DNA of 64,000 bases, taken from contig NZ_PHQQ01000025.1 in NCBI RefSeq assembly GCF_002909235.1, positions 1 through 64,000 of the forward strand, read 5' to 3'. Of this stretch, positions 8,194 through 48,254 are shown piece by piece. The DNA comes from Arenibacter catalasegens (lineage in GTDB: Bacteria; Bacteroidota; Bacteroidia; Flavobacteriales; Flavobacteriaceae). Position 1 is the stretch's first letter. Every line of letters begins with the position of its first letter. The notes below the pieces were generated by a model, which was not told where the DNA came from, did no database searches, and saw nothing but the letters and a program-made list of their open reading frames with translations. The translations under genes and the position numbers were made by a program.

Positions 8194-8236
8194 TGAAGAT
8201 AACCGATGTGGTGAAGAAAAAATATGACGTTGGTCA
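8194..8236 (-). promoter_or_regulatory. Fnr-like site and -7 box for lipoprotein-ldhA
   Basis: TGACGTTGGTCA at 8225-8236 matches TGAY-N4-RTCA. On the minus strand TATCTTCA (8201-8194), a two-mismatch version of TAnnTTTG, ends 36.5 bp from the dyad centre. The start codon is 133 bp from the site, giving a leader of about 100 bases. Confidence 0.65.
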
Positions 8237-8248
8237 GTTAGATCATTA

Positions 8249-8653
8249 TTACCCTTCCGAGCTGCGCGTTTTTAAGATGCCTCCGGCATAATTGAAGATT
8301 TCTGATTTAAGATTTTGAAAATGTTCGAGGCACTCGTCCACTTCGGCCTGCAATTTATCACTTCTTTTGTTATCGTCTGAACCAAGAGTAGGGGTGGTAC
8401 GGTCCCAATCGCCTCCCAAATCGTTTTCGTGGATGGATATAGCGGTTTTTATCTCTTGACTTCTTATATTCAGGCTCTCAATGCGGGTCCCATAGTTTTG
8501 AATCCGTTCAAACAGGTTAGGGGTGTTGGTCTTAAAAGCACTGGATTGTAATAACCGGGTTATAAATAAAATTTCATCTTCCATAAACTGAAGGTGTGAT
8601 TTCCATTGCTGGATTCTCCAATGTAATTGGGCCAATTGTTCCTCTTTATCCAT
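8249..8653 (-). CDS. small helical protein, family member A
   Basis: A 134-residue, highly charged, all-helical protein without signal or membrane segment. It belongs to a family with two further members in this window (34465-34863 and 38090-38476). Shared positions include an early LH, then W-x(3)-L-x-F-x(2)-DE-x(2)-F, a middle helix, and a late I-x(2)-HE-x(2)-L. In this copy they read LHWRIQQWKSHLQFMEDEILF and AISIHENDL. The conserved acidic and His residues on helices would suit a metal-binding or ferritin-like bundle, but this is a guess. A degenerate Fnr-like site with a good -7 box lies upstream. Confidence 0.7.
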   Translation of the reverse strand: MDKEEQLAQLHWRIQQWKSHLQFMEDEILFITRLLQSSAFKTNTPNLFERIQNYGTRIESLNIRSQEIKTAISIHENDLGGDWDRTTPTLGSDDNKRSDKLQAEVDECLEHFQNLKSEIFNYAGGILKTRSSEG

Positions 8654-8688
8654 TATTATTTTAATTTTTATTTACGCTGGCTTTTGAG

Positions 8689-8731
8689 TAAAGTTAGCTA
8701 CTATGAAAAAAGTAAGCAATGAGATTTGTCA
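8689..8731 (-). promoter_or_regulatory. degenerate Fnr-like site and -7 box for small helical protein
   Basis: TGAGATTTGTCA at 8720-8731 differs from TGAY-N4-RTCA at one position. TAACTTTA on the minus strand (8696-8689), one mismatch from TAnnTTTG, ends exactly 36.5 bp from the centre, which argues that the site is real. Confidence 0.5.
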
Positions 8732-8738
8732 TCTCCTT

Positions 8739-10109
8739 TTATATCATTATTTCTTGTACTTCGTTTAATTTTGGCAGGTGTACCCTCCATCCATAAAAAT
8801 CCTTAATTTTAACTCTAAAGGCATCCAATGAAGTAGGTTCGCCATGAATAAGGAATACAGTTTCAGGAATATTTTCTATGTCCTTCAACCAATGCATTAA
8901 TTCGCTTTGATCGGCGTGGGCCGATAGACTTTCCAAATGATGGATTTTTGCCTTGACGGGATAGTATTTGCCGAAAAACTTAAGTTCATGGGCACCTTCC
9001 AATAGTTGCCGGCCACGGGTTCCTTCTGCCTGAAAACCAACCAACAAGACCGATGTTGAAGATACATCGATCAACTGTTTTAAATAGGTGAGTACCCTAC
9101 CGCCTGTAACCATCCCACTACCGGCAATAACAATTTTAGGTCTTGGGTCATCAATGGTCTTCCAAGTGTCGGCATAGGATGTTATGATGTTGAAATGGTT
9201 GCACATGGCATGGTACTCGTTCATTGGTAGCTTATGCCAATTAGGAAATTGTTCAAAAACAGATAAAACATTATTGCCCATAGGGCTATCAATAAAAATG
9301 GGAATATTGGGAATTTTGTTTTTTTTGTACATCTGCCAAAGTAAGTACATAATAGATTGCAGCCGCTCCACGGCAAAGGACGGGATGATGAGATTTCCTC
9401 TTTCTTGAACAGTTGTTTTAATGAGGTTACTTAGTATACTTTCCACATCTTCCTTAGGATGTAATTTATTACCATAGGTGCTTTCCATAAATAGATAATC
9501 GGCCCATTTTGGGCGTTCCGGCACCTCTAATAGATTGTCCTTAAGTCTACCAATATCACCAGAAAAAACGAATAATTTTCCGAAGATTTCCAACTCTATA
9601 AAGCAAGCACCAATAATATGGCCGTTAAACCTGTATTTGAAGCGAATGTCTTCCGATAGGGAAATCCATTGGTCCTTGTCTGTGGATTTAAACAAATCAA
9701 CGGTACGCTCCGCTTCTTTTATTGTGTAAAATGGCAATGCGGGCTTATGCTTGCTATAGTCCTCTTTATTGGCTTTTTCAGCTTCTTCTTCATGAATCTT
9801 GGCACTGTCCAATAAAATAATCCTTGTAACCTCCAAGGTAGGTGCAGTTCCTAATATCTTCCCTCTAAACCCTTCTTTTACCAATCTTGGTAAATATCCG
9901 GTATGGTCCAGATGACCATGGGTCAATAGGACCAAATCTATTTTACTTACATCTATAGATAAGGGAATCCAGTTTTGTTGCCGAAGCTCCTTTACACCTT
10001 GGAACATTCCACAATCGATCATAATATTCAAATCCGGTGTTTCCAAATAGAATTTGGAGCCAGTTACGGTTCCGGAAGCCCCTAAGAAATGTATTTTGAT
10101 AGTATTCAT
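8739..10109 (-). CDS. beta-CASP metallo-beta-lactamase RNA-processing nuclease
   Basis: A 456-residue protein of the CPSF73-like class: metallo-beta-lactamase fold with H64-G-H66-L-D68-H69, a beta-CASP insert (residues ~180-370) and a C-terminal RMMBL segment (around residue 390, LESLSAHADQSEL). Such enzymes cut or trim RNA using two zinc ions. Homologues are common in bacterial stress and anaerobic gene sets. It is the last gene of a tight run: the ATP-cone nuclease gene ends 3 bp upstream and MscS precedes that. The grouping of an RNA nuclease with a nucleotide-sensing nuclease suggests a shared response, but the substrate is unknown. Confidence 0.85.
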   Translation of the reverse strand: MNTIKIHFLGASGTVTGSKFYLETPDLNIMIDCGMFQGVKELRQQNWIPLSIDVSKIDLVLLTHGHLDHTGYLPRLVKEGFRGKILGTAPTLEVTRIILLDSAKIHEEEAEKANKEDYSKHKPALPFYTIKEAERTVDLFKSTDKDQWISLSEDIRFKYRFNGHIIGACFIELEIFGKLFVFSGDIGRLKDNLLEVPERPKWADYLFMESTYGNKLHPKEDVESILSNLIKTTVQERGNLIIPSFAVERLQSIMYLLWQMYKKNKIPNIPIFIDSPMGNNVLSVFEQFPNWHKLPMNEYHAMCNHFNIITSYADTWKTIDDPRPKIVIAGSGMVTGGRVLTYLKQLIDVSSTSVLLVGFQAEGTRGRQLLEGAHELKFFGKYYPVKAKIHHLESLSAHADQSELMHWLKDIENIPETVFLIHGEPTSLDAFRVKIKDFYGWRVHLPKLNEVQEIMI

Positions 10110-10112
10110 AAT

Positions 10113-10958
10113 CTAGTGATTACAGAGTTGTTTAATTTCATCCAGAATTTTTTCCTTTCTGGATTGGGAGATGCCTAAATGATCCAAATAGAATTTATCC
10201 TTCCATAATTGTCTGCATAGCACAATATCCCTACTCAACAGAAACTGTTTTTCCCTATTAGTAAGTAGGGCGGAGACCGTAATGGGATATAGCCCTAATC
10301 GATCAATGCGGTCCTTAAGTCCGTCCTTTAAAGGGAGGTCCCAACTTAAAAGATACAAGCCCGCGCATTTGCCATAGGCAATGGCGTCTCCAGTAAAACG
10401 GGTATTGGTTACTAACCAACCATTATCAAGTTTCCTTTTTTCATTTTTCTTGGTGGCCCAATGCGCTTTTACATCATTATATCTGGAGTGGATATAGAGG
10501 GGGATTTTAACATTGCAATTGCGACCCTCTTCTGAATGGAATTTACATTCGATGACAGTGACTGTTCCATTTTTTTCAGCAATTACGTCAATTTCATGGG
10601 TAACGCAGATGCCGTTCATTATTTCATCTACACGTGTCGTGTAACCCGAATATTCCAAGATGGCTGCCACAAAACGTTCAAAAGGAAACCCTGTAGGTCC
10701 CAATTCGTATAAGGCTTTTTTAAGTTTGTATTTTGAGGCAAAAATGGATTTGTTCTTTTTCAAAAGGGCATAGGCCCTATTGTATATTTCATTAGTGGAG
10801 ATGCCTTCATAAAGTTCCTCTTTTACCTGGCCAACAATTTGTTCTACTACATTAAGGTCGGCACCGCTTCGTTTAAGGGAATTTCGAAGTTTATCTAGGG
10901 AAAACTTAGCTCGTTCTCCAGAGGATTTTAGAATTTCAATGTCCAATTCTTTTTCCAT
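10113..10958 (-). CDS. ATP-cone / PDDEXK (Mrr-like) nuclease fusion
   Basis: A 281-residue fusion. Residues ~7-88 form an ATP-cone, the nucleotide-sensing module best known from ribonucleotide reductases and NrdR (pattern KSSGERAKFSLDKLRNSLKRSG). Residues ~95-200 form a PDDEXK nuclease core: E122-I-D124 followed by E137-C-K139, then QGV-like basic strands. The C-terminal ~60 residues include a helix-turn reminiscent of a DNA-binding tail (HLGISQSRKEKI). It should cut nucleic acid in response to the ATP/dATP state. It is not linked to a methyltransferase, so it is unlikely to be a classical restriction enzyme. The neighbouring gene ends or starts lie 1-3 bp away on both sides. Confidence 0.8.
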   Translation of the reverse strand: MEKELDIEILKSSGERAKFSLDKLRNSLKRSGADLNVVEQIVGQVKEELYEGISTNEIYNRAYALLKKNKSIFASKYKLKKALYELGPTGFPFERFVAAILEYSGYTTRVDEIMNGICVTHEIDVIAEKNGTVTVIECKFHSEEGRNCNVKIPLYIHSRYNDVKAHWATKKNEKRKLDNGWLVTNTRFTGDAIAYGKCAGLYLLSWDLPLKDGLKDRIDRLGLYPITVSALLTNREKQFLLSRDIVLCRQLWKDKFYLDHLGISQSRKEKILDEIKQLCNH

Positions 10959-10959
10959 A

Positions 10960-11859: not shown

Positions 11860-11876
11860 GAGTAAATGATTTTATT

Positions 11877-11911
11877 AAGACCGCCAAAACAAAATTTGTT
11901 TTGGCGGTCTT
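11877..11911. terminator. bidirectional hairpin terminator
   Basis: AAGACCGCCAAAACAAA and its exact reverse complement are separated by one base, giving a stem of up to 17 bp in practice closed by a small A/T loop, flanked by A and T residues. It lies 18 bp after the eRF1-like gene and before the MscS gene on the minus strand, and probably attenuates transcription between them. Confidence 0.8.
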
Positions 11912-11929
11912 TGAATTAATGATAACCAA

Positions 11930-12355: not shown

Positions 12356-13201
12356 TTAAGATTCGTTTAAAGCCAAAATAGGAACTGTAGCATCATAGCC
12401 AATTGCTTTGACCAATGGCTTAGAAAATATACTGTTAAAAAGGAAATGTTTCTTGTTGATGAACGCGATCATATCGCTGTTTCTACTTTCCACAAAGGAA
12501 GTTAATCCGCTAGCCACACCCTTACCCGATAGGGTATGGAAGCTATGGTCAACAATTCCCAGAATATCATTTAAGAGCTGTTTATTAGTCTCTTGATCTT
12601 CGTCTAGTGCAATTTCCTTTTTGAAGTGAAGCACACGTATAGCCGAATTGTGCATTTTCGCTATTTCAATCAAATAATTTAGTTCCTTATGCTTAAATGA
12701 GGATTTATAATTAGTGGGAAAGACAATTTCCTTCGGACTTGAAAAACGCACATCTTCCGGAATAGCCATTACCGGGCATTCCTTAATTTTCTCCATGGCA
12801 TTTACCGTATTACTTCCAAAAATAACCCCTTTGGTACGTGTGGCTCCTTGGGTACCCATGATGACTAGATCTATCTCTTTGTTGGTTATGGTCTGTTTAA
12901 TAGCCTCCGACAGAAAATTGAAAGTTGAAATAGTGTGATAGGTATGTTTGGGGTTGTCGTGGTGAAGCGCCAACATGTTTAATAATTTAGCGAACCCTTC
13001 CTCTGATTCATCTTTGGCCGTTTCATATTCCGCACTTCCCGGCTCTGGCATGGTCAAGGTATTGGTGGTGTAATTATCCAGATGGAAAATGTTTAAAAAG
13101 TAGAATTCGCAGTTGAGCTTTGCATAAAGATCCAAGGCATAGCGCGTAGCATTGATCGCGTTTTTAGAGAAATCGGTAGGAATTAATATTCTTTTGTCCA
13201 T
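12356..13201 (-). CDS. universal stress protein, tandem UspA domains
   Basis: A 281-residue protein with two Usp domains (about 1-145 and 150-281). The first starts with RILIPTDFSKNA and keeps the ATP-binding signature G-x2-G-x9-GS (G116-TQG to S130). The second domain has lost this signature, so only one nucleotide site is expected per chain. Usp proteins of this type are induced on energy limitation and help survival without growth; the molecular action is mostly unknown. It is the first gene of a unit with the eRF1-like protein, 58 bp downstream of a perfect Fnr-like palindrome. Confidence 0.9.
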   Translation of the reverse strand: MDKRILIPTDFSKNAINATRYALDLYAKLNCEFYFLNIFHLDNYTTNTLTMPEPGSAEYETAKDESEEGFAKLLNMLALHHDNPKHTYHTISTFNFLSEAIKQTITNKEIDLVIMGTQGATRTKGVIFGSNTVNAMEKIKECPVMAIPEDVRFSSPKEIVFPTNYKSSFKHKELNYLIEIAKMHNSAIRVLHFKKEIALDEDQETNKQLLNDILGIVDHSFHTLSGKGVASGLTSFVESRNSDMIAFINKKHFLFNSIFSKPLVKAIGYDATVPILALNES

Positions 13202-13227: not shown

Positions 13228-13270
13228 TAAATATAATATGCTACACCCACAGTTACTATGACAATTGTCA
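13228..13270 (-). promoter_or_regulatory. Fnr-like site and -7 box for USP at 12356
   Basis: TGACAATTGTCA at 13259-13270 is a perfect palindrome and overlaps the stop codon of the upstream USP gene. TATATTTA on the minus strand (13235-13228), one mismatch from TAnnTTTG, ends 36.5 bp from the dyad centre. It gives the 12356 gene its own promoter inside the USP array. Confidence 0.8.
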
Positions 13271-14986: not shown

Positions 14987-15060
14987 TAAAGCTAAATCAG
15001 AAGATTATCGTAAACCATGATATTGGTCAGTTCGAGTTTCTCTTTGTTTTGGTAATTTTA
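14987..15060. promoter_or_regulatory. divergent Fnr-like promoter for USP pair and thioredoxin
   Basis: TGATATTGGTCA (15018-15029) sits between two divergent genes. To the left, TAGCTTTA on the minus strand (14994-14987), and to the right, TAATTTTA (15053-15060), are each one mismatch from TAnnTTTG. Both end exactly 36.5 bp from the same dyad centre. One bound dimer could therefore activate both genes from a class II position. Confidence 0.8.
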
Positions 15061-15079: not shown

Positions 15080-15379
15080 ATGAAGAATAGTTTTAGTAAT
15101 ATCATCAACTCAGAAACGCCAGTTTTAGTCGATTTTCACGCCGATTGGTGTGGCCCATGTAAAATGTTGGCACCAATTCTGAAACAGGTCAAGGACGAAA
15201 TGGGCAACGCTATAAAAATTGTGAAAATTGATGTGGACAAAAACCAAACTCTAGCCAGCACCTATCAAGTAAGAGGAGTACCCACTATGCTTCTATTTAT
15301 AAATGGAAAACAGGTATGGCGGGAGTCTGGCGTGCTACAAAAGAACGACATCGTAAATGTTATTAAGCAGCATAGTTAA
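15080..15379 (+). CDS. trxA: thioredoxin
   Basis: A 99-residue cytoplasmic thioredoxin that reduces protein disulfides, with active site W23-C24-G25-P26-C27 and the cis-proline loop GVPTMLLF (residues ~74-81). The N-terminus is slightly short for the family, lacking about eight residues of the first helix. It is expressed divergently from a USP pair from a shared Fnr-like site, so it is probably a stress-specific thioredoxin rather than the housekeeping one. It ends 25 bp before the convergent USP gene. Confidence 0.93.
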   Translation: MKNSFSNIINSETPVLVDFHADWCGPCKMLAPILKQVKDEMGNAIKIVKIDVDKNQTLASTYQVRGVPTMLLFINGKQVWRESGVLQKNDIVNVIKQHS

Positions 15380-16275: not shown

Positions 16276-16318
16276 TAAAAGTAGAGGCTCTGCAACTGTT
16301 TCCAAATGACAAATATCA
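16276..16318 (-). promoter_or_regulatory. Fnr-like site and -7 box for USP at 15404
   Basis: TGACAAATATCA at 16307-16318 fits TGAY-N4-RTCA. TACTTTTA on the minus strand (16283-16276), one mismatch from the -7 consensus, ends 36.5 bp from the centre. Immediately downstream of the site TGTTGGTC repeats part of the other sites' core. Confidence 0.75.
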
Positions 16319-19853: not shown

Positions 19854-19896
19854 CAAAGTTATTGGTAGTGTCCTATAAAATCTATGACATTTATCA
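19854..19896 (-). promoter_or_regulatory. Fnr-like site and perfect -7 box for four-USP unit
   Basis: TGACATTTATCA at 19885-19896. TAACTTTG on the minus strand (19861-19854) is an exact TAnnTTTG and ends 36.5 bp from the dyad centre. Confidence 0.85.
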
Positions 19897-20786: not shown

Positions 20787-20829
20787 CAAAATTAGAGCTA
20801 TAGCTATAATTGAAATATGACATTGGTCA
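20787..20829 (-). promoter_or_regulatory. Fnr-like site and perfect -7 box for USP at 19927
   Basis: TGACATTGGTCA at 20818-20829. TAATTTTG on the minus strand (20794-20787) is an exact TAnnTTTG, ending 36.5 bp from the dyad centre. This is the best combined example of the arrangement in the window. Confidence 0.85.
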
Positions 20830-20867: not shown

Positions 20868-21920
20868 CTAATTAATAAATTGAAGGGCCTTTAATTCCTT
20901 GATACGTATATTTCGGCCTTCAATCTCGATCAAACCCTCTTTTTTAAAGCCGGAGAGGGTTCGTATAAGGCTTTCCGTGGCAATACCCGCCACACTGGCT
21001 AGGTCGTTACGGGAAATTTTGATAGGGTCTTCTGTTTTAGTATTCATGACTTCTGCAAATTGCAATAAGGTCTGTGCCGTTTTCTTTCGTACAGAACTAT
21101 AGGCCATTTGCAACAATTGCTGTTTAATATCCTTTATATTCCCTGAAAGAAGTTCCATTAGTTCAAAGGAGATATTATGGTTATTCTCTAAAACCTGTTT
21201 TAAACTTTCTTTTGATATTCCGGCAACTTCTACCTCTTCAATGGCCGTAGCCGATTCCTGATATGGAATATTGTCTATAAAAGAGGTGAATCCCAAGAAA
21301 TCATCTGCTCTATATAAGGACGTAATCAGTTCCTTACCATCCTCATCCATGGAATGGGATTTAACCACTCCCCTTAGGATAAGGTAAATTTTATGGCAGT
21401 ATGAACCCTCTTGGTATATAGTACTGCCCTGTGTAAAAGTTGCAGGCTCACCGTTGTCGTCAAAAAAGTTCTTTAGCTCGTTTAAGGTGCGTATGGGATT
21501 TTCTGAGGCTTGTAGATTTAATAATCCTTCTTGCGAGGTACGCCTCAATAGTTCCACTTTCGCCATTCGACTCTCAATGGCACTTATTAAATCCTCTTCT
21601 TCAAAAGGTTTGGTTAGATAGTCGTCCGCACCCAGATCCATTCCCTTTCGTATCTCTTTGTGTTCTGTTTTGGCAGATAGGAATATAAACGGAATATGTT
21701 TGGTCTTTTCATCAGAAGACAGATCTTTTAATACTCCATAACCATCTACCTCTGGCATCATTATGTCACATACCACAATATCTGGTAATTTTTCTTTGGC
21801 CATTTGAATACCAATTTTTCCGTTTGGGGCCGATGTTACCGAATAACCAGAAAGTTCCAAAAGCTCTTCTGTGTTTTCGCGTAATGCCCTATCGTCCTCG
21901 ATCAATAAAATAGTCTTCAT
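20868..21920 (-). CDS. response-regulator receiver fused to Crp/Fnr regulator
   Basis: A 350-residue transcription factor (ATG 21920). Numbering below is from an alternative ATG 8 codons upstream, which overlaps the kinase gene. Receiver domain ~9-125 with acidic pair E16-D17-D18, phospho-acceptor D60, and K112 in TKPF. Cyclic-nucleotide-binding-like domain ~160-265 (fold glycine region YQEGSYCHKIYLILRG). Crp-type winged helix ~285-350 with recognition helix IATESLIRTLSGF, in which E324 and R328 occupy the positions of Fnr Glu209 and Arg213 that read the TGA half-site. No N-terminal Cys cluster, so no Fnr-type Fe-S sensing; phosphorylation by the adjacent kinase is the likely input. It is the best candidate to bind the TGAY-N4-RTCA sites. 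Confidence 0.9.
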   Translation of the reverse strand: MKTILLIEDDRALRENTEELLELSGYSVTSAPNGKIGIQMAKEKLPDIVVCDIMMPEVDGYGVLKDLSSDEKTKHIPFIFLSAKTEHKEIRKGMDLGADDYLTKPFEEEDLISAIESRMAKVELLRRTSQEGLLNLQASENPIRTLNELKNFFDDNGEPATFTQGSTIYQEGSYCHKIYLILRGVVKSHSMDEDGKELITSLYRADDFLGFTSFIDNIPYQESATAIEEVEVAGISKESLKQVLENNHNISFELMELLSGNIKDIKQQLLQMAYSSVRKKTAQTLLQFAEVMNTKTEDPIKISRNDLASVAGIATESLIRTLSGFKKEGLIEIEGRNIRIKELKALQFIN

Positions 21921-21927
21921 TGTTTTC

Positions 21928-23439
21928 TTAAGTTTTGTGTTCAAGTGGGATAATTATCGTGAAATTGGACCCTTTATTTTCTTCACTGGTAAATTGAATA
22001 GTGGCTCCTAGATTCTCCAAATGTTGTTTGGCTATGTTAAGGCCTATGCCTGTACCTTGGTTCAATAAGGCATTTTCGGCTCTAAAATAACGATTGAAAA
22101 TATGTTTTTGGTCTTCAGCAGGAATCCCAATACCATGATCAATGACCTGTATTAGAATATTACCGGCACCATTACTCACAACCAGGTCTATGGTTGAATC
22201 TTCTGGAGAGTATTTAATTGCGTTGTGGATTAGGTTGGACAAGGCTAATTCCAAGGTTTTTTCATCAAAATCGATGAAAATGTCGTCGATGTTTTCTGGA
22301 TACGAAATTTTTTGTCCCGACTTAAGTAGCATATTGGCGCCATAAACCACTTCGTTTATTATTTTACTCAGCGGAAAAATTTCTATTTTGTAATTTATCT
22401 TTCCTGAATCTAAACGTTCTACTGAAAGAAAATCGGTTAGGATGGTATCCAGATACCGTACTTTGTTCTTTATAGTATCTACGTGCTTGTCACGTTTTTC
22501 CTGCTGGTTTCCCTCAGTGTATTTTGCCAACAAAGTTATAGAGGTAAGAATGCTGCTTAATGGGGTCTTAAATTCATGGGAAACCAAGGAAAGGAAACGT
22601 GTTTTCAATTCGTTCAGTTCTTTCTCCTTTGCTAGGGCATCTGTAAGTTGTTTGGTACGTTCCTGCACCGTTTTTTCCAGTTTTTCCGTATAATTTTTTC
22701 GTTCTGTTATATCAAGTATAATAGCAACAAAAACTTGTCTTTCACCAAGAATGGATAATTGAAGGTGTACCTCTACTGGATAAACTGAGCCATCTTGCCG
22801 TTGGTGGTCAGTTTCAAATTTAACCTTATCCAATTCCCCTTTCAATAATGGCTCTATTAGTCGCTGAAATTGTGCTGTATCCATATGGGGTTTAATATCC
22901 AATGGAGTCATGGTTTTAAACTCTTTGAGATCATAGCCCATATTTCGCTGCGCCTCTTTATTGACATTCGAAAAATGTAAGGAAATTGCATCGAACACAT
23001 AAATCTCGTTAAGTGACTCATCAAATATCCTGGCCCAATGGCTAAGTTCCTTTTCCTTGATCTTACGTTCCGTAATATCAATAATCAGGGCCATTACATA
23101 GGTTTCATCATAAAGTTTAAAAGGATTAAGTCCAGCTTCCACAGGAAATTCCTCTCCATTCTTGTGGACCCCATGTAAGTCCCTTCCTTGGCCCATTTGC
23201 CTCCGTTGACTTTTTTCAATAAACTGATCTACATGTTGACCATGGTTATGATGATACCTCTGCGGTATTAAGGTATCCAAGGGTTTTCCTAAAAGTTCTC
23301 CCTTATTGTATCCAAACATCCGATCGGTAGAGGAATTGGTGGCAACAATTAATTGTTCGGTATTGACAACTATAATACCTTCAGATACACCTTCGGCAAG
23401 GAGATTGAATATTTCGCTGTTTTTTTGGAAGGAATGCAT
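21928..23439 (-). CDS. PAS-PAS sensor histidine kinase, FixL-like first PAS
   Basis: A 503-residue soluble kinase: PAS1 ~8-125, PAS2 ~135-248, coiled coil ~250-280, dimerisation helix with phospho-acceptor H288 (SHEFKTPL), and HATPase domain with N box (NLIHNAIKYSP), G1 DHGIGIP and G2 GTGIGLNIAK. No membrane segment, so the signal is cytoplasmic. PAS1 contains H66 and R86 in the context RYHHNHGQHV to GQGRDLHG; their 20-residue spacing equals that of haem ligand His200 and Arg220 in Bradyrhizobium FixL. Many non-haem PAS domains also have this His, so haem binding is an inference. The stop codon lies 7 bp before the regulator's ATG 21920, indicating coupled translation. Confidence 0.9.
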   Translation of the reverse strand: MHSFQKNSEIFNLLAEGVSEGIIVVNTEQLIVATNSSTDRMFGYNKGELLGKPLDTLIPQRYHHNHGQHVDQFIEKSQRRQMGQGRDLHGVHKNGEEFPVEAGLNPFKLYDETYVMALIIDITERKIKEKELSHWARIFDESLNEIYVFDAISLHFSNVNKEAQRNMGYDLKEFKTMTPLDIKPHMDTAQFQRLIEPLLKGELDKVKFETDHQRQDGSVYPVEVHLQLSILGERQVFVAIILDITERKNYTEKLEKTVQERTKQLTDALAKEKELNELKTRFLSLVSHEFKTPLSSILTSITLLAKYTEGNQQEKRDKHVDTIKNKVRYLDTILTDFLSVERLDSGKINYKIEIFPLSKIINEVVYGANMLLKSGQKISYPENIDDIFIDFDEKTLELALSNLIHNAIKYSPEDSTIDLVVSNGAGNILIQVIDHGIGIPAEDQKHIFNRYFRAENALLNQGTGIGLNIAKQHLENLGATIQFTSEENKGSNFTIIIPLEHKT

Positions 23440-23443: not shown

Positions 23444-23506
23444 CAAAGATAAAATTTTAAAACTGATAATTGTCATAGAACTTAAATAGGTCGTTTTCTA
23501 AATTTA
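23444..23506. promoter_or_regulatory. divergent region: Fnr-like site between kinase and TerB-like gene
   Basis: TGATAATTGTCA at 23464-23475. To the right TAAATTTA (23499-23506), one mismatch from TAnnTTTG, ends 36.5 bp from the centre, so the site can activate the gene at 23542. To the left the kinase's best -7 box is TATCTTTG on the minus strand (23451-23444), an exact match whose end is only 25.5 bp from the centre. There the site would cover the -33 region and block the promoter, suggesting negative autoregulation of the kinase-regulator unit. Confidence 0.65.
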
Positions 23507-24925: not shown

Positions 24926-24968
24926 CAAAAGTAAAGAGTATCAAAAACACCTGACATGATATTGGTCA
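24926..24968 (-). promoter_or_regulatory. Fnr-like site and perfect -7 box for USP at 23972
   Basis: TGATATTGGTCA at 24957-24968. TACTTTTG on the minus strand (24933-24926) is an exact TAnnTTTG ending 36.5 bp from the centre. The leader to ATG 24796 is long. The 378-bp gap 24797-25174 also holds the site for the rightward gene at 25175; the rest shows nothing recognisable. Confidence 0.8.
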
Positions 24969-25110: not shown

Positions 25111-25153
25111 TGACATCGGTCATTTTATAATGATATTCTGTAGCCTACTTTAG
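25111..25153 (+). promoter_or_regulatory. Fnr-like site and -7 box for WG-repeat gene
   Basis: TGACATCGGTCA at 25111-25122, followed by TACTTTAG (25146-25153), one mismatch from TAnnTTTG, ending 36.5 bp from the centre. The ATG is 53 bp from the site. Confidence 0.75.
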
Positions 25154-32004: not shown

Positions 32005-32047
32005 CAAAACTATTCTAAATATAGTAATCCGGACATGACCATTATCA
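32005..32047 (-). promoter_or_regulatory. Fnr-like site and perfect -7 box for patatin gene
   Basis: TGACCATTATCA at 32036-32047; TAGTTTTG on the minus strand (32012-32005) is an exact TAnnTTTG ending 36.5 bp from the centre. Confidence 0.8.
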
Positions 32048-33412: not shown

Positions 33413-33455
33413 TAAAATTAAACTGATCTAAATCTATTTCAAATGATTTTAATCA
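33413..33455 (-). promoter_or_regulatory. Fnr-like site and -7 box for YtxH unit
   Basis: TGATTTTAATCA at 33444-33455 has the canonical Fnr core TGAT-N4-ATCA. TAATTTTA on the minus strand (33420-33413), one mismatch from the -7 consensus, ends 36.5 bp from the centre. The gap to the rightward site at 33598 shows nothing else. Confidence 0.75.
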
Positions 33456-33597: not shown

Positions 33598-33640
33598 TGA
33601 TATTAATCATTTTATATGAGGGATTAAATTCGCACTTTTG
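33598..33640 (+). promoter_or_regulatory. Fnr-like site and -7 box for sigma-like gene
   Basis: TGATATTAATCA at 33598-33609, also the canonical TGAT-N4-ATCA form, followed by CACTTTTG (33633-33640), one mismatch from TAnnTTTG, ending 36.5 bp from the centre. The ATG is 61 bp from the site. Confidence 0.75.
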
Positions 33641-38509: not shown

Positions 38510-38552
38510 CAAATTTATTTAAACCTAAGGACCTCTGAAATGATATATGTCA
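38510..38552 (-). promoter_or_regulatory. Fnr-like site and perfect -7 box for small helical protein C-UbiB unit
   Basis: TGATATATGTCA at 38541-38552; TAAATTTG on the minus strand (38517-38510) is an exact TAnnTTTG ending 36.5 bp from the centre. Confidence 0.8.
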
Positions 38553-38762
38553 TTTGAGGACGTATTTATATCCCTTTCCTTTGGAGTGTTAAATCGAATA
38601 TTTAAAAAATTGGGAAAGGTGTTGGAGCAGTAGTCTTGTAGTGTAGACCAATTCCTATCCAAATAAAGTGTTTAAAATTGAATCAACCATAAAAGGAGTA
38701 TCAGAAGCTATACAAAGTTGCTTGTTGACTCTTTATTTAATGTCTAACTTAAATTTATAATT

Positions 38763-40287: not shown

Positions 40288-42381
40288 TTAAAGGCCTTGT
40301 GCTTGTATGGCAGTTATTACAACAGTATTAAAAATATCATCCACAGTACAGCCACGGCTTAGATCGTTTACAGGCTTGTTCAGACCTTGCAACATTGGAC
40401 CAATGGCCAAGGCGCCTGTTTCCCTTTGTACGGCCTTATAAGTGTTGTTTCCGGTATTGAGGTCCGGAAAAATAAAAACGCTGGCCTGACCGGCCACCTC
40501 AGAATCCGGCAGTTTACTTTTGCCCACATTTATATCTACTGCGGCATCGTACTGAATAGGCCCCTCCACTTTTAGATCTGGACGTTTCATTTTTATTATT
40601 TCTGTTGCCTTGCGCACCCTATCCACGTCCTCACCAACCCCTGAGGTACCAGAGGAATAGGAAAGCATGGCAATTTTGGGTTCAATACCAAAAGCGATAC
40701 TGGTAGCAGCCGAAGAAATAGCAATTTCTGCCAATTGTTCTGCTGTAGGATTCGGATTTATGGCGCAATCCCCAAATATGGTAACTCGGTTGGGGAGACA
40801 CATAAAGAAGACCGAGGAAACTATGGAGACCTCTGGCCTGGTTTTAATAAATTGCAATGCCGGCCTAATGGTATGCTGGGTGGTATGAATAGCTCCGGAG
40901 ACCATACCATCGGCATGGCCTTTGTAGACCATCATGGTTCCAAAATAGGAAACATCCTCCATAAGGTCTTTCGCCATGGCAAGATTAACATTTTTATTCT
41001 TGCGCAGTTCGTAAAGGGTGTCGGCGTAATCCAAAAAATTGGGAGACGAGGTGGGATCTATGATAGTGATGCTGCTGAAATCCAAATTAATATCCAACTC
41101 CGTAATTTTCGCCTTTATTTGCTCAGGGTCACCTAACAATGTAATGGTAACGGCATTGGTATCTATTAGTTTTTTGGTAGCGAATAAGATGCGATCATCC
41201 GCTCCTTCGGGAAGAACAATATGCTTTTTGGCTGATTTAGCCCTTTTTAGAAGATTGTACTGGAACATCCGAGGGGTAATCCCCTCCGCCTTAAAAGTAA
41301 TAAGACGTTCGGCCAATTCATTAATCGGTACATATTTCTCGAATTCCTGTATAGAGGTTGTTATTTTCTCCTTGTTTTCCGCATATATTCTTGGTTTAAT
41401 GGTGCCTATACGGTTGGTTACCGAAAAAGTACCGTCAGCTACGGATATTATTGGAATTATATCGGAGAGTCCTTCAATAAGTTTAATGATAGATTCCTCT
41501 GGCAACAGACCGCCCGTTAATATTATGCCTGAAAGATTTGGATAATTGGTGGAGATATTGGCCTGTAATGCACCTAAAATTATATCTGCCCGATCCCCAG
41601 GAGTTATCACCAAGCTGTCCTTTTTTAAATGGGTGAGATAATTCCGGAGTTGCATGGCTCCCACACTAAATTCTCCGGCCTGATTGTTTATAAAATTCTC
41701 ACCAAACAAAACCTTGCCAGAAAGTTTCTGTGCAATTTCCTTTACGGTAGGATTTCCCAATATTGGGTTAAGGGGAATAGCCCCAACCAAAACTTTTTCC
41801 GGCAATTTTTTCTTGAGACTTGAGACCACTAAATCTATGTTCTCAGGCTGTACTTTATTGGCTACCGTCAATAGTACTTCCACACCTTTTTCTTTAAAGG
41901 AATCATAGGCCATGTATACATTTCCAACTAATTCTTGTAGGGTTTTGCCCATTCCGTTGGCAATGATGACTGCGGGAATCCCCAGGTTTTTTGCAATTAG
42001 AACATTAATGTCCCACTCTATAATGGCACCTTCCCCAGAAAAATCGGTTCCTTCCACCAAGACAATATCGAAACGATCTTCAATAGCTTTATACTTATTG
42101 ATGATTTTACCTATGATTTCATCATCCTTGTCCAAATTTTTGAGTTGTACTACCTCACTTCGTGTATAAGCAAAGGAATCCTCGAATTTTTGGTCCACCT
42201 CAAAATGCTTTAGTATGGTATCTATATGGTCGTCTACATTGTTCTTTTCAAAGTCATCTATAATGGGCCTGAAATAGCCCACTTTGGCCGTTTTTCCCAA
42301 TAATAGTTGCATAAGGCCCAAGGATACGATCGATTTTCCGCTATTGGGTTCTGTAGTGGCAATATAAATGGCTTTACTCAT
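40288..42381 (-). CDS. pta: phosphate acetyltransferase, long form
   Basis: A 697-residue enzyme exchanging CoA of acetyl-CoA for phosphate. It is the long class: N-terminal P-loop-like regulatory domain (EPNSGKS, residues ~7-13) with a DRTGG-type middle domain, and a C-terminal catalytic part (~370-697) with the KRAKSAKKHIVLPEGADDRI opening and SGTSGVGEDVDRV. With ackA it turns acetyl-CoA into acetate and ATP. It is the first gene of the pair, 84 bp after an Fnr-like site. Confidence 0.95.
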   Translation of the reverse strand: MSKAIYIATTEPNSGKSIVSLGLMQLLLGKTAKVGYFRPIIDDFEKNNVDDHIDTILKHFEVDQKFEDSFAYTRSEVVQLKNLDKDDEIIGKIINKYKAIEDRFDIVLVEGTDFSGEGAIIEWDINVLIAKNLGIPAVIIANGMGKTLQELVGNVYMAYDSFKEKGVEVLLTVANKVQPENIDLVVSSLKKKLPEKVLVGAIPLNPILGNPTVKEIAQKLSGKVLFGENFINNQAGEFSVGAMQLRNYLTHLKKDSLVITPGDRADIILGALQANISTNYPNLSGIILTGGLLPEESIIKLIEGLSDIIPIISVADGTFSVTNRIGTIKPRIYAENKEKITTSIQEFEKYVPINELAERLITFKAEGITPRMFQYNLLKRAKSAKKHIVLPEGADDRILFATKKLIDTNAVTITLLGDPEQIKAKITELDINLDFSSITIIDPTSSPNFLDYADTLYELRKNKNVNLAMAKDLMEDVSYFGTMMVYKGHADGMVSGAIHTTQHTIRPALQFIKTRPEVSIVSSVFFMCLPNRVTIFGDCAINPNPTAEQLAEIAISSAATSIAFGIEPKIAMLSYSSGTSGVGEDVDRVRKATEIIKMKRPDLKVEGPIQYDAAVDINVGKSKLPDSEVAGQASVFIFPDLNTGNNTYKAVQRETGALAIGPMLQGLNKPVNDLSRGCTVDDIFNTVVITAIQAQGL

Positions 42382-42433: not shown

Positions 42434-42507
42434 CGAAGTTCGGGCTTAGAAAGATTACCTTATATGACAGAAGTCATTTAATGCTCCAACAAAAAGCCCT
42501 AATTTTA
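42434..42507. promoter_or_regulatory. divergent Fnr-like region between pta and USP
   Basis: TGACAGAAGTCA at 42465-42476. To the right TAATTTTA (42500-42507), one mismatch from TAnnTTTG, ends 36.5 bp from the centre and would serve the USP at 42631, with a leader of about 117 bases. To the left the equivalent position holds GAACTTCG (42441-42434), two mismatches, for pta. The site may therefore mainly serve the USP or both. Confidence 0.65.
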
Positions 42508-42630: not shown

Positions 42631-43491
42631 ATGAAAACACTGCTTTATGCTACGGATTATTCAGAAAACTCAGCCTCTGCTTTGAAATATGCATATGCTT
42701 TAAGTAGATTATTAAGTACTCGAATGGTTGTAACCCATGTTTTTGAAGACTCCAATATTATTGATATGGAAGAACTTGATGATCAGCCTCGTTTGGAAGG
42801 GAATATATTTAAATTACACCGGTCCAAGTTGGAGCTATTCTGTAGTAAACACCTGGGTAGTAAATGGGACAATCCTACTATACAATTGGAAGCGGTACAG
42901 AACAAATCAGTGATAAAGGGGATTATTTCCAAGGCAGAAGATTGGCATGCCCAGATGATTTTGGTGGGTACTAAAGGAGGAAGCAGTTTAGACGAATTAA
43001 TTTTAGGCAGTACCACCAAGAAGCTCATTGAAAGGGCCCCATGTCCAGTATTGGCCATTCCAGCCGACGAGGACCGCATTAATATCCGTACCATAGTCTA
43101 TGCCACAGATTTTGAGGAGGAAGATATACATGCCATCCATAAACTAACAGAAATTGCCAAGCCTTTATCGGCTAAGATCAAGGTGGTGCATATTTCCACA
43201 AATGAGGAATATACGGGGGATTTGTTGATGGAGTGGTTCAAGGAAATGCTCAAAACCAAGGTGGATTATCCAGAGATTGAATTTGAGCTATTGTTTTCGG
43301 CGGATGTATTTGAAACCCTGAGAGTATATCTTGGTGTAGTAAATGCGGATATTATTGTTATGTTGGAAAGGGAAAAGAAGGGATTTCTTAAAAAATGGTT
43401 CCATAAAGACCTTGTTAAAAAAATGGAGGACTACGGAAGGGTGAGTTTGATGAGTTTTAATGAGCACAACCATCAGACACTACATTTTTAA
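42631..43491 (+). CDS. universal stress protein, tandem UspA domains
   Basis: A 286-residue two-domain Usp, separate from the main array. Domain 1 starts KTLLYATDYSENSASALKYA, with GTKG-x9-GSTTKKL. Domain 2 starts IRTIVYATDFEEEDIHAI, retaining the opening strand that array members have lost, but without the Gly signature. It is divergent from pta-ackA and shares its Fnr-like region. Its association with acetate fermentation genes recurs in other bacteria. Confidence 0.9.
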   Translation: MKTLLYATDYSENSASALKYAYALSRLLSTRMVVTHVFEDSNIIDMEELDDQPRLEGNIFKLHRSKLELFCSKHLGSKWDNPTIQLEAVQNKSVIKGIISKAEDWHAQMILVGTKGGSSLDELILGSTTKKLIERAPCPVLAIPADEDRINIRTIVYATDFEEEDIHAIHKLTEIAKPLSAKIKVVHISTNEEYTGDLLMEWFKEMLKTKVDYPEIEFELLFSADVFETLRVYLGVVNADIIVMLEREKKGFLKKWFHKDLVKKMEDYGRVSLMSFNEHNHQTLHF

Positions 43492-44635: not shown

Positions 44636-44720
44636 GCTATTTTCTTTTAGGCAATGATTATGTTATCGTCCAATTTAATGTTATGAATTAGAGGAAGCAA
44701 TTTAACTGCTTCTAAGTGGT

Positions 44721-45662
44721 TTATTTTTGTGTCTTTTGGATCCATTTGTACAACATGTCTGCATCGTCCTTATTGCACAATTGTGTACCTTCATGCATGG
44801 TAGCTGCGGTACCGCAGGCTACACCATATTTTACCATCTCGCTATAGGTTTTGCCCTGAAGCAGACTCACTATCATACCTGCTACCATGCTATCACCCGC
44901 TCCAATGGTACTTTTTTGCAGAACAGTGGGTGCGGGAATATGCTCCATTAGGTTTTTAGTCGCCAAGAGGGCTCCTTTTGCCCCCAAAGAGACAACAAGT
45001 ATCTCACAATCATGTTCATCCAAAAACTTTTTGGCAAGTGTTTCCAGTTCTATCGCGGATATGGATTTTACTCCGCACAAGGAGCTTAGCTCGCCCAAAT
45101 TGGGCTTCAACATAAAAACTCTGGATTTTGTTGCCTTTACCAATGCCTCTCCCGAAGTGTCCAAAACAAACCTAATTTTTTTCTTTTTGGCTACTTCGGC
45201 TACCTGTACGTAAAAATCATCCGGCATTCCCGGGGGTAATTTACCGCTGGCTACTAAATAATCTCCTTCATTTAATTTTTTTTCCAATATCTCTAATACA
45301 ACTTCCCATTCCTTTTTTTCAACCTGTGGCCCCGGTACCCCAAAGCGGTATTGTAAATTGGTTGTGGTATCGGTAACAGCAAGATTATCGCGTGTCCATC
45401 CCTCGATGGGAATCGCTAATTGGTCAATACCTGTCTTGTCCAATAATTGCTTTAAATGTTCACCGGTAGGACCGCCTGCGAGATATATACAGAGTGAATC
45501 CATACCCAACTTTTTAACGGCACGGGATACATTGATGCCACCACCACCTGCATCATAGGTAGGTGAGGAGCATCGTAATTTTGTATTGGGGCTAATGCCC
45601 GCCACTGTTACACTCTTGTCCAGTACTGGGTTCAAAGTAAGTGTTACTATTCTATGGTACAT
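44721..45662 (-). CDS. pfkB: PfkB-type phosphofructokinase
   Basis: A 313-residue sugar-phosphate kinase of the PfkB/1-phosphofructokinase family. N-terminal TLTLNPVLDKSV, GG-rich substrate loop DAGGGGINVSRA, and the C-terminal signature GAGDSMVAGM with the catalytic Asp. Most likely phosphorylates fructose 6-phosphate or tagatose/fructose 1-phosphate; the LNPVLDKS opening fits Pfk-2. ATG 45662 is chosen because a longer reading would overlap the upstream dehydrogenase gene. It lies 22 bp after that gene, in one operon with it. Confidence 0.88.
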   Translation of the reverse strand: MYHRIVTLTLNPVLDKSVTVAGISPNTKLRCSSPTYDAGGGGINVSRAVKKLGMDSLCIYLAGGPTGEHLKQLLDKTGIDQLAIPIEGWTRDNLAVTDTTTNLQYRFGVPGPQVEKKEWEVVLEILEKKLNEGDYLVASGKLPPGMPDDFYVQVAEVAKKKKIRFVLDTSGEALVKATKSRVFMLKPNLGELSSLCGVKSISAIELETLAKKFLDEHDCEILVVSLGAKGALLATKNLMEHIPAPTVLQKSTIGAGDSMVAGMIVSLLQGKTYSEMVKYGVACGTAATMHEGTQLCNKDDADMLYKWIQKTQK

Positions 45663-45684
45663 GTTAATCGAAGTTTTATTAGTT

Positions 45685-46674
45685 TTAGAGGACCTCGTTT
45701 TTACAGGGAAGTCCCTTTTCAAGACAATCCAAATTCTCTATGGTCGTTTCGGCAATATTTTTTAGGGCGGTATCGGTTAAAAAAGCCTGATGACTAGTAA
45801 TCATTACATTGCGCAAGGTCATTAATCGGGCAATCATGTCATCCTGTAGGATGTCTTCCGAATGATCTTCAAAAAACAAGCCTTCTTCCTCCTCATAAAC
45901 ATCCATTCCATAATACCCAATTTGTTGGGATTTAAGGCCATTAATAACATCTTGGGTATTTACCAATCCTCCTCTACCGGTATTGATCAGCATTACCCCC
46001 TTTTTCATTTTGGCGATCTGGGCTTCGTTTACCAGATAATGTGTTTGTTCCTTCAAGGGGACATGTAAGGAAATAATATCGGATTGGTTACACAGGCTAT
46101 CCAAATCGGTATAGGTTGCCTTGCATTCTTCCACTAGGGTTTGGTCTATCACCGTATCGTATGCCAGAATATGACATCCAAAACCATGTAGAATTTTAGC
46201 CGCGATTCTGCCAATTTTCCCAGTACCAACAATACCGACTGTTTTTCCGTTCATATCAAAACCTACCAATCCGTCCAAGGAATAATTCATTTCCATAATG
46301 CGATAATGGCTTCTTATTAACTTGCGGTTTAGAGCTAGAATTATTGCCACTGTAAATTCAGCTATGGAATTGGGCGAATAGTCCGGAACACGGACAATTC
46401 TTATTCCCAGGGATTTGGCGTACGGTATATCCACGTTGTTATAGCCAGCGGAACGCAGGGCAATGTGTTTTACTCCAATCTCATGCAGCTTGTCCAATAC
46501 GGGAGCAGAACCGTTATCTTGTGTGAATATGCAAATGGCTTCACAACCCTTGGCCAAAATCGTGGTATCTATATTAAGATAGGAGTCCAATAATTTTAGC
46601 TCATGTTTATTGTCGTTGGCATCTACTAAATATTCTTTCTCAAATTTGTGTGTATTAAAAACAGCTACTTTCAT
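45685..46674 (-). CDS. ldhA: D-lactate dehydrogenase family (second copy)
   Basis: A 329-residue NAD-dependent D-2-hydroxyacid dehydrogenase with the same layout as the copy at 6448: GTGKIG Rossmann motif, catalytic Arg in NTGRGGL, Glu in DVYEEEEG and His in TSHQAF. The N-terminus MKVAVFNTHKFE aligns with MKLLVYSAKNFE of the other copy, which supports ATG 46674 over the longer reading from 46695. It leads an operon with pfkB and perhaps glk: glycolysis plus lactate formation under one Fnr-like site (46718-46760). Confidence 0.9.
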   Translation of the reverse strand: MKVAVFNTHKFEKEYLVDANDNKHELKLLDSYLNIDTTILAKGCEAICIFTQDNGSAPVLDKLHEIGVKHIALRSAGYNNVDIPYAKSLGIRIVRVPDYSPNSIAEFTVAIILALNRKLIRSHYRIMEMNYSLDGLVGFDMNGKTVGIVGTGKIGRIAAKILHGFGCHILAYDTVIDQTLVEECKATYTDLDSLCNQSDIISLHVPLKEQTHYLVNEAQIAKMKKGVMLINTGRGGLVNTQDVINGLKSQQIGYYGMDVYEEEEGLFFEDHSEDILQDDMIARLMTLRNVMITSHQAFLTDTALKNIAETTIENLDCLEKGLPCKNEVL

Positions 46675-46717
46675 TATTTGTATTATGAAACACATTAAGG
46701 TGTCCTAGTTGCAATTC

Positions 46718-46760
46718 CAAAGGAAGTAATTATGAAGGTGATCTAATATGATATTGGTCA
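46718..46760 (-). promoter_or_regulatory. Fnr-like site and -7 box for ldhA-pfkB-glk unit
   Basis: TGATATTGGTCA at 46749-46760; TTCCTTTG on the minus strand (46725-46718), one mismatch from TAnnTTTG, ends 36.5 bp from the centre. Confidence 0.8.
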
Positions 46761-46886
46761 TTACCCTATGGTAATATCCATTCTATTACAGTATGGATAA
46801 AAAGGGTCAAGGCCTGTATTTATTTAAGAATAAATAGCCAATGAATGAGGTTTGTTTCAATTTATGCGAATGTCTTGGACAAGAGG

Positions 46887-47453
46887 TTATTCAATTTTCA
46901 ATGGAGGTCCCACTACCTGCATTTCATTTTCTGCAAATAGTTGCTTGATCTCTTCTAGACTAGGCTCATGATCCAAAGCGGACATAGAAACAAAAAAGTT
47001 CTCCAATTTACCGGCGGGCTGAAGTGTTACCATCATTTTACCTTTTTCAGATACCTGGCTCCAAGCATGTGGAACTTTTCTAGGTAGAAATATGCTATCA
47101 CCAACGCTTAGATTATAGGTTTCATCCCCGACCTTGAAATAGTATGCCCCTTCTAGAACATAAAATATTTCGTCCTGTTCCAAGTGTATATGCAAAGGAG
47201 TTCCTTTTCCTTGGGAAAGAGAAGTTTGTTCAAATATAGCTAGGGAATTATCGGTATCACTACCGGATATTTTCACATCCAAGACATTAGAGTTTACTCC
47301 CTTTAATTTTATATGTCCATGTATTCTACCTTCCCCTGCATTAATTTTAAAACCTTTGTTCTTTCTTTTTAATACTTTATCCAGTGATGAAAATGAGAGT
47401 AAGGGCAGAGCGGTGATTGTAGATAGGACTGCGATGAAGCTGTTTCTTTGCAT
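46887..47453 (-). CDS. cupin-domain protein with N-terminal export signal
   Basis: A 188-residue protein. Residues 1-22 are hydrophobic (MQRNSFIAVLSTITALPLLSF), fitting an export signal. The cupin core (~60-150) has metal ligands in PLHIHLEQDEIFYVLEG (His-x-His, Glu) and the second motif PRKVPHAWSQ. Monocupins of this form bind a divalent metal; the reaction is unknown. ATG 47453 is preferred over 47492, which adds 13 hydrophobic residues. It is monocistronic, without a clear Fnr-like site. Confidence 0.75.
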   Translation of the reverse strand: MQRNSFIAVLSTITALPLLSFSSLDKVLKRKNKGFKINAGEGRIHGHIKLKGVNSNVLDVKISGSDTDNSLAIFEQTSLSQGKGTPLHIHLEQDEIFYVLEGAYYFKVGDETYNLSVGDSIFLPRKVPHAWSQVSEKGKMMVTLQPAGKLENFFVSMSALDHEPSLEEIKQLFAENEMQVVGPPLKIE

Positions 47454-47692
47454 ATTCCACAAATTAAAGATGAATAGGGGCAGTGGGAACATACCTTGTA
47501 GTTCCTATATCTAAGTTACGGAATAAGTAGATCGAATAAGAGAATTTATTAGGATAAAAAAATAATATAGGTGTAGGTTATGACGAAGCTGAATTTTTAT
47601 GTTTTACTCAATACGGACATACAAATATTATAGCCTTACCTCTTGGTAAATTGCTGTAAAAAATAGGGAACCATTTCAGGTGTTCTCGTATT

Positions 47693-48145
47693 TTAAGTTT
47701 CTTTTCTTTTTCCAGTAATCTCCAATATTTTAATACGATATACTGTCGGATTTCCGCGAGAGTACAATTTGCTTGAAAATTCACTTATAAATTCTGTTTC
47801 CCTATGCTCCTTCCGCAGAATAAGACTTTTAACCCCTTCCGTAAATTGGTGCAATTTAAACTTGGCATCAGTACCTTGTAGTTCTTCAAAGGTTCCATGG
47901 GCCATAACGGATTGCCAATTTTTTGAGGATATAATTTCTTCCACCAATAAGGAAACCGAATGGTTATTACGCATGGCTTCTATTTTATGTCCTTCTGAGG
48001 AATAACTTATTATTGAATGATCTTCTTTGTCATAATAATAGGTGATGGGAAGAACATAAGGCTGGTGTTGGGATATATATCCCAGATGGCCCGTGTAGTT
48101 GTCCATAAGGATACGAATACTCTCGTTAGTTGTTAAATCTATCAT
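47693..48145 (-). CDS. FMN-binding split-barrel (PNPOx-like) protein
   Basis: A 150-residue protein of the pyridoxamine 5'-phosphate oxidase-like fold. The opening SIRILMDNYTGHLGY and the early strand LPITYYYDKEDHSIISYSSEGHKIEAM match flavin-reductase/Nim-like split barrels that bind FMN, haem or F420. No substrate is visible. The promoter with a perfect -7 box and an Fnr-like site (48212-48254) makes it a member of the regulon, probably in redox chemistry. Confidence 0.78.
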   Translation of the reverse strand: MIDLTTNESIRILMDNYTGHLGYISQHQPYVLPITYYYDKEDHSIISYSSEGHKIEAMRNNHSVSLLVEEIISSKNWQSVMAHGTFEELQGTDAKFKLHQFTEGVKSLILRKEHRETEFISEFSSKLYSRGNPTVYRIKILEITGKRKET

Positions 48146-48211
48146 GGGTTATAGTTTTGTAAATCTGTTATTAAGGACCATTGGTTCTGAGGTGTACCTT
48201 TTCATTTAAGT

Positions 48212-48254
48212 CAAATCTATACCCTTCCGTACAGTTAAAATATGACAACGGTCA
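48212..48254 (-). promoter_or_regulatory. Fnr-like site and perfect -7 box for split-barrel gene
   Basis: TGACAACGGTCA at 48243-48254; TAGATTTG on the minus strand (48219-48212) is an exact TAnnTTTG ending 36.5 bp from the centre. Confidence 0.8.

Follow-up and report, generated by a model that had tools for sequence, protein, structure and literature searches.

One operator for a low-oxygen or energy-stress regulon of Flavobacteriaceae, probably shared by a fused FixJ-FixK-like regulator and an FNR-like protein

Short palindromes resembling the binding sites of FNR recur ahead of genes for universal stress proteins and other functions at a locus of Arenibacter catalasegens (Flavobacteriaceae), which raises the question of which protein reads these sites and in response to what signal. 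The locus lies on contig NZ_PHQQ01000025.1, of which we analyzed positions 1 to 64,000 (hereafter the window), and it encodes a regulator at 20868 in which a receiver (REC) domain is fused to a CRP-type module. We consider it quite probable that the sites belong to a class II low-oxygen/energy-stress regulon of Flavobacteriaceae whose operator is common to this fused, FixJ-FixK-like regulator and to an FNR-like protein encoded elsewhere in the genome. That the regulon and its geometry are real is near certain.

The window contains 19 exact TGAYNNNNRTCA sites (TGAY-N4-RTCA), compared with a mean of 3.97 (standard deviation 2.08, maximum 13) in 100 dinucleotide shuffles. Seventeen of them fall in 8194-48254, together with one more at 8720 that is one change away from the pattern. 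For 15 of these 17, a match with at most one mismatch to the promoter box TAnnTTTG lies on one or both sides at a distance of exactly 23 bp; sites 15018 and 38541 have such boxes in both directions, so that the pairs of site and box total 17. Only two-mismatch boxes accompany sites 8225 and 26688. The remaining two sites of the window, 4958 and 56855, have no box at this spacing, the former showing a one-mismatch box one base off. All of this might be an artefact of AT-rich intergenic DNA that produces random palindromes and boxes, and one-mismatch boxes are indeed common by themselves (1.05% of window positions, both strands). However, the 19 sites have 38 oriented flanks, in which boxes with no more than one mismatch number 17 at the 23-bp offset (six being exact matches), three at the next best offset and 0.39 on average at the others. 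The sequence-only reading of this DNA had arrived at 17 sites plus the single-change site, about four chance matches in 64 kb, exact boxes at 19854, 20787, 24926, 32005, 38510 and 48212, eleven one-mismatch boxes (8689, 13228, 14987, 15053, 16276, 23499, 25146, 33413, 33633, 42500 and 46718) and a constant site-to-box distance, and our recount reproduces each of these.

The same geometry is found at related loci. From a 10-row alignment of the fused regulator we obtained at least 576 confirmed loci, and the best 80 of these (1.51 Mb in total; the named loci) are nearly all flavobacterial by title, with one titled only Bacteroidetes; the Arenibacter regulators in this set are 85-88% identical to that of the window. 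Carriers of the fused regulator include Dokdonia pacifica, Nonlabens ulvanivorans and Arenibacter algicola. At the 23-bp spacing, the named loci hold 423 boxes with at most one mismatch, about 34-fold above the mean of 12.4 over 93 other offsets, with 41 at the next best offset (offset 6, inside or adjoining the site). For exact boxes the count is 141 against a mean of 0.69, the next best offset having seven. With a small change in the edge rule, 425 pairs are counted; a heuristic caller of open reading frames places 401 of them between genes, though it called 87% of this DNA coding, and the median distance from the end of the box to the start codon is 25 bp. In 149 genomes of the family, exact site-box matches number 1161, compared with 22 for the reversed pattern that served as control. 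Given the shuffles and the spacing peaks in the window and the named loci, we reject chance or promoter composition as the source of the pattern, an explanation to which we grant next to no probability.

A logo of the 423 sites shows AAA(C/A) ahead of the site, T-rich DNA between site and box, and a box that ends in G or A. The core TGAY-N4-RTCA of FNR and FixK operators is present, while the outer T of the FNR half-site TTGAT is absent as a rule, the upstream base being mostly C (0.51) or A (0.35) and rarely T (0.11) and the downstream base T (0.93), which is A on the other strand. Among these sites, which were selected on the core, the logo shows no TGTGA extension as in the CRP operator TGTGA-N6-TCACA, and in the named loci the DNA between site and box has no conserved G near -33. 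Class II activators usually bind at -41.5. Because a start-site map of Flavobacterium psychrophilum places TAnnTTTG at -12 to -5, the fixed 23-bp spacing would by arithmetic put the site centre at exactly this position, in agreement with the class II placement that had been proposed from the window alone; the available portion of the main text of that study names neither Fnr nor Crp (PMC9723704). The operator and the fixed site-to-promoter geometry are well supported, and we propose that AAA(C/A)TGAY-N4-RTCATWTTT, centred at -41.5 and 23 bp from a TAnnTTTR -7 box, would act as a class II activator site.

The pattern reaches far beyond the window. A scan of the whole genome (5.45 Mb, 82 contigs) for the combined site-box pattern with at most one mismatch gave 57 matches, compared with 12 for the reversed pattern, and when exact matches were counted at spacings from 8 to 38, spacing 23 alone accounted for 17, compared with 19 for the 30 others combined. 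In the 51 of 57 matches that we viewed, a heuristic call of open reading frames assigned 46 to intergenic DNA (one overlapping an 85-aa frame under a laxer cut-off) and five to called frames, one of which is only 70 aa long. Equal frequency inside genes had been named beforehand as a result that would speak against the regulon; since site-box pairs are instead overwhelmingly intergenic, both here and in the named loci, we reject a coding-sequence artefact. The original description of the regulon as cluster-wide was too narrow, because matches occur throughout the genome in islands on several contigs, and strictly cluster-local regulation is rejected as well. One island (C7:15-33 kb) contains a second fused regulator gene, 56% identical to that of the window, and its sites precede genes for a universal stress protein, a DUF308 protein, an aconitase and an amidohydrolase (437 bp away). 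Another, on contig C23, comprises the FNR-like gene, a CcoI-type copper-ATPase gene, ccoNO for the cbb3 oxidase, a HemN-like radical SAM gene and a universal stress protein gene. On C28 the targets are genes for an L,D-transpeptidase, MlaE (one-change site), an OmpA-like protein (two-mismatch box) and a universal stress protein, and on C78 those for a multicopper oxidase-cytochrome c protein, probably nitrite-reductase-like, and a porin-like protein; lone targets elsewhere include a DnaJ-like gene and a cytochrome c. The logic of oxygen or energy limitation that the window targets had suggested fits this wider set, with its cbb3 oxidase, HemN-like and multicopper oxidase-cytochrome c genes.

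The candidate reader within the window is the protein of 350 aa encoded from an ATG at 20868..21920 on the minus strand (open frame to 21944), in which Pfam recognizes Response_reg (E 1.2e-29), cNMP_binding and HTH_Crp_2 domains. Homologs are about 350 aa long and mostly named response regulator or CRP-like protein (best 120 of 7902). In ten aligned orthologs, the acidic residues and Asp60 of the receiver domain are invariant, and there is no cysteine cluster, the sole invariant cysteine (C59) lying in the receiver domain. The sequence-only reading had connected this regulator with an Fnr-like regulon, and we reject an FNR proper at this position because a receiver domain is present and the four-cysteine ligand set is missing. 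In kind, its idea of a class II regulon of FNR-like type linked to oxygen or energy is correct; the regulator that it assigned is of the wrong type. The fused regulator likely reads the operator.

Directly upstream in the same operon (21928..23439, minus strand) lies a gene for a PAS-PAS histidine kinase recognized by Pfam, whose FixL-like first PAS domain has FixL as its best solved-structure match (1d06, E 2.9e-12) and DosP as the next. Within the named loci, this kinase is found no more than 120 bp upstream of the fused regulator in 73 of the 77 loci having it. The residue aligned to the heme-ligating His of FixL is kept in 73/76 kinases and that aligned to the distal Arg in 57/76, the window's kinase keeping both, as His66 and Arg86 of the PAS domain. 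Oxygen sensing by the kinase, presumably through heme, is probable, and the kinase would phosphorylate the fused receiver domain. It is possible, if rather unlikely, that the fused regulator mainly answers another signal through this kinase, such as energy state, redox, nitric oxide or nutrient limitation, and that the operator overlap adds this input to low-oxygen genes. The incomplete conservation of the distal Arg would suit such a role, as would the fact that the genes controlled near the regulator are most often those of universal stress proteins and not respiratory ones. However, the best matches of the first PAS domain are heme oxygen sensors, and genomes with only the fused regulator retain the cbb3 oxidase under the same operator, as detailed below.

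A better FNR candidate is encoded on contig C23, separate from the window. Over most of its length, this FNR-like protein can be aligned with the FNR of Aliivibrio (9qlt, E 3.8e-22), and its CxxC motif and last cysteine align with FNR ligands, while the third FNR ligand is missing. Another cysteine, off the FNR ligand positions, is invariant in 20/20 orthologs, and a rearranged Fe-S cluster is possible. The FNR-like protein at L071:5662-6408 displays the four invariant cysteines with one off an FNR ligand position. The recognition helix reads ATE(S/T)-x-IR in all ten aligned fused regulators and ATES-x-IR in 19/20 FNR-like orthologs (no pattern match in L099), compared with VETISR for FNR in the 9qlt alignment; Ile thus replaces Ser, which fits the absence of the outer T in the half-site. 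In a tree of 41 CRP modules (from 18 of the 80 named loci, the C7 paralog, 20 FNR-like proteins and two other CRPs), the fused and FNR-like groups stand apart with support of 100/99 and 99/99. We expect that the FNR-like protein very probably reads the same operators.

How the two regulators relate to the operator was studied across the 149 family genomes. Of these, 66 contain the fused regulator (E up to 1e-50), and the FNR-like protein is found in 102 at E up to 1e-25 and in 91 at the cut-off used for counting (E up to 1e-40). Exact site-box pairs per genome average 13.97 where both are present (n=36), 8.87 with the fused regulator only (n=30), 6.51 with the FNR-like protein only (n=55) and 1.21 with neither (n=28). 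For genomes of 2.9-3.6 Mb that are at least 95% complete, the corresponding values are 13.3, 9.2, 6.2 and 0.67 (n=12, 18, 17 and 6), and a Poisson fit to 126 genomes that ignores their kinship attributes a 2.5-fold effect to the fused regulator and a 1.7-fold effect to the FNR-like protein. As for the cbb3 oxidase, ccoNO is present in 28/30 fused-only genomes, in 27/30 FNR-like-only genomes (30 of the 55 examined) and in 1/28 genomes with neither, this last being an 82% complete assembly. A site with a box of at most one mismatch at the 23-bp spacing lies upstream of ccoNO in 26/28, 26/27 and 1/1 of these, the misses having no site-box pair (L203), two mismatches (L208) or a site without box (L235). 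The retention of one operator on one respiratory gene, whichever regulator is present, speaks most strongly for a replacement of one regulator by the other. As a separate observation on these promoters (L181-L235), the exact cbb3 box ending in G is found in 23/26 FNR-like-only and 12/26 fused-only genomes (Fisher p 0.0025, kinship ignored).

These data also bear on a simpler view, an ordinary FNR regulon in which every site is read by the C23 protein alone while the fused regulator, a bystander, has some other target. The resemblance of that protein to FNR, with CxxC and last ligand included, argues for it, and so do the sites at the CcoI-like ATPase, ccoNO and HemN-like genes and the one recognized by eye upstream of the FNR-like gene itself, provided that this gene starts at the ATG ahead of the cysteines. 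Yet the 30 of 149 genomes that carry the fused regulator without an FNR-like ortholog still have their pairs and, in 26/28, the cbb3 site, and the sites of A. catalasegens cluster around both of its fused-regulator genes. We regard a regulon of the C23 protein alone as improbable.

Beyond the family, 198 genomes of the phylum (at least 90% complete) contain the fused regulator in 12/19 members of the family, 0/2 other members of the order, 20/28 other members of the class and 0/149 genomes outside the class. The 28 other class genomes hold 91 exact matches, compared with 7 controls (counted by hand from the table). Across the sample, the exact pattern occurs in 84/198 genomes and the FNR-like protein (E up to 1e-30) in 42/198, ten of them outside the class.

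Several observations weigh against a shared operator with two low-oxygen readers. The co-occurrence is correlational and ignores the kinship of genomes. On average, genomes devoid of both regulators are smaller, and almost none of them has the cbb3 target. Some of these genomes have matches nevertheless: nine in G048 (82% complete), seven in G147 (73% complete) and five exact ones in G138, which is 99% complete and has no ccoNO; conversely, G098 and G100 have only two and one despite carrying one regulator. Outside the class, 38/149 genomes have at least one exact match yet no fused regulator. In five fused-only genomes, the FNR-like query matches a remoter member of the CRP family (E 1e-32 to 1e-39), and two CRP-family proteins on contig C1 of A. 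catalasegens also have E-x-x-x-R helices, so that the operator may have a third reader. In 19/76 kinases, another residue stands in place of the distal Arg. Finally, the available text of a study on a metagenome-assembled genome of Flavobacteriales predicts a carbon-sensing, MalR-type role for a CRP/FNR homolog (PMC8510549), on which the present data do not bear directly.

Sites occur in 56/74 upstream regions of the kinase, with 50 boxes at offset 29, the regulon spacing, in the divergent direction. No fixed autoregulatory geometry for the operon itself was found in these 74 regions; the offset of the boxes toward the kinase varies, being 16-19 or 29-32 in most cases. In the window (23444-23475) as well as at one locus of Pricia and four of Arenibacter, the shared site is centred at -30.5 from an exact box before the kinase, from which the transcript would start at the kinase ATG and be leaderless; in other genera, the box before the kinase is at other distances. 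A site at -30.5 suggests self-repression there. It would also fit an explanation in which the sites in general serve for repression and are occupied in the absence of the signal. Against this stand the -41.5 placement at the other promoters, which is the usual one for class II activators, the lack of a conserved G near -33, and the induction of cbb3 oxidase and heme biosynthesis by oxygen limitation described for F. psychrophilum in the available part of PMC9723704. Repression as the general mode is, to our mind, very improbable, and activation would be the main effect of the operator.

Within the window, the motif and spacing scan assigns sites and boxes to many promoters, and those of universal stress proteins are the most frequent. 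On the minus strand, these precede 12356-13201 (13228..13270), 14123-14962 (14987..15029, with the site common to a divergent promoter), 15404-16243 (16276..16318) and, with exact boxes, 18986-19831 (19854..19896), 19927-20763 directly 3' of the fused regulator gene (20787..20829) and 23972-24796 (24926..24968); on the plus strand, 42465..42507 serves 42631-43491. In the named loci, the genes that best match the universal stress protein of 15404-16243 are preceded by a site in 53/80. Exact boxes on the minus strand also precede a patatin-like phospholipase (31164-31979; 32005..32047), 38090-38476 together with an ABC1-kinase (36402-38084; 38510..38552) and a PNPOx-like flavoprotein (47693-48145; 48212..48254). 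Further minus-strand promoters are those of 8249-8653 (8689..8731, single-change site and one-mismatch box), the YtxH-like 33042-33371 (33413..33455) and a D-2-hydroxyacid dehydrogenase (45685-46695) with a PfkB kinase (44721-45722; 46718..46760). Two lactate dehydrogenases had been suggested among the targets; in the genes scanned, only the one at 45685 proved lactate-dehydrogenase-like, and its neighbour at 44721 is the PfkB-family kinase. On the plus strand, promoters are predicted for thioredoxin (15080-15379; 15018..15060), for 23542-23937 (131 aa), divergent from the kinase operon (23464..23506), for 25175-25816 (WG repeats) and the next gene, a short-chain dehydrogenase (25111..25153), and for 33670-34437, whose sigma-factor match is weak and under NCBIfam cut-offs, together with the helical 34465-34863 (33598..33640). 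At 38541..38583, a site and one-mismatch box point in the plus direction, opposite to 38510..38552, with no called gene close downstream. The pta-ackA genes (40288-42381 and 39068-40264) adjoin site 42465, but the flank toward them has a two-mismatch box only.

A few of these genes deserve mention in their own right. The 131-aa protein of 23542-23937 has no Pfam, NCBIfam or PADLOC match, and homologs (E up to 1e-5) occur in 49/80 named loci, its gene being divergent from the kinase. Three small, helical-looking proteins are encoded in site-bearing units (8249-8653, 34465-34863 and 38090-38476), and the two of their three pairs that were compared show 25% identity each (E 2e-6 and 1e-5). The frame 10113-10958, which lies 3' of universal stress protein genes, encodes an ATP-cone and Mrr-type nuclease-like protein, with a mechanosensitive-channel-like gene and a beta-CASP nuclease (8739-10109) as neighbours.

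Among known systems, the closest parallel is the FixL-FixJ-FixK cascade of rhizobia and Burkholderia, which likewise joins a PAS kinase, here closest to FixL, to a response regulator and a CRP/FNR-type output; the FixK box core TGAY-N4-RTCA and the cbb3 oxidase as target of the cascade are shared as well. Unlike in that cascade, the outer half-site base is C or A and not T, and the promoters are of the TAnnTTTG type. Whereas the FixLJ response regulator has a LuxR/GerE-type output, receiver and cNMP_binding/HTH_Crp_2 modules form one protein here, and the intermediate transcription step is therefore absent. For Burkholderia, the available texts describe that FixLJ induces fixK in low oxygen (PMC5234846) and, in connection with a low-oxygen locus that encodes six universal stress proteins, discuss FixK as a possible central oxygen-response regulator (PMC6127331). 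With FNR, the system shares the core site and the -41.5 class II position, and the separate FNR-like protein keeps CxxC and the last cysteine; it differs in the window regulator without cysteine cluster, the FNR-like protein without the third FNR cysteine, and Ile for Ser in the recognition helix. DosRST is similar in its hypoxia-type two-component control over many universal stress proteins, but DosR is a LuxR/NarL-type regulator, in contrast to the CRP/FNR-type module with its palindromic FNR-like site; Anr of Pseudomonas is a single regulator without phosphorelay fusion. In the available text of PMC6127331, 10/48 genes of the mycobacterial DosRST dormancy regulon are universal stress proteins, and Anr, as an oxygen-sensing regulator of FNR type, controls such proteins under hypoxia. 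In the open-licence literature (subscription papers being outside our scope), we found no report of an FNR-type regulon, this operator or the fused regulator for Flavobacteriaceae.

We propose that the system may be a shortened FixL-FixJ-FixK cascade in which FixJ and FixK have merged into one protein, and that family genomes carrying one regulator, the other, both or neither would reflect the ability of each to replace the other, the cbb3 operator being kept with either. In its boldest form, the Flavobacteriaceae would run their low-oxygen or energy-stress programme through a single operator with two unrelated, interchangeable sensors, one a receiver-CRP fusion with a FixL-like heme kinase and the other an FNR-type protein with a rearranged four-cysteine cluster; on this we consider the balance even. 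If it holds, each promoter in genomes that have both regulators would give a response computed from two inputs, the fused protein would serve as a compact activator for TAnnTTTG promoters, and regulator replacement on a conserved operator would offer a clean, testable case of network rewiring. The Flavobacteriaceae abound in the sea, in soils and in fresh water, and an operator of such defined and fixed geometry would permit low-oxygen regulons to be predicted in many of their genomes.

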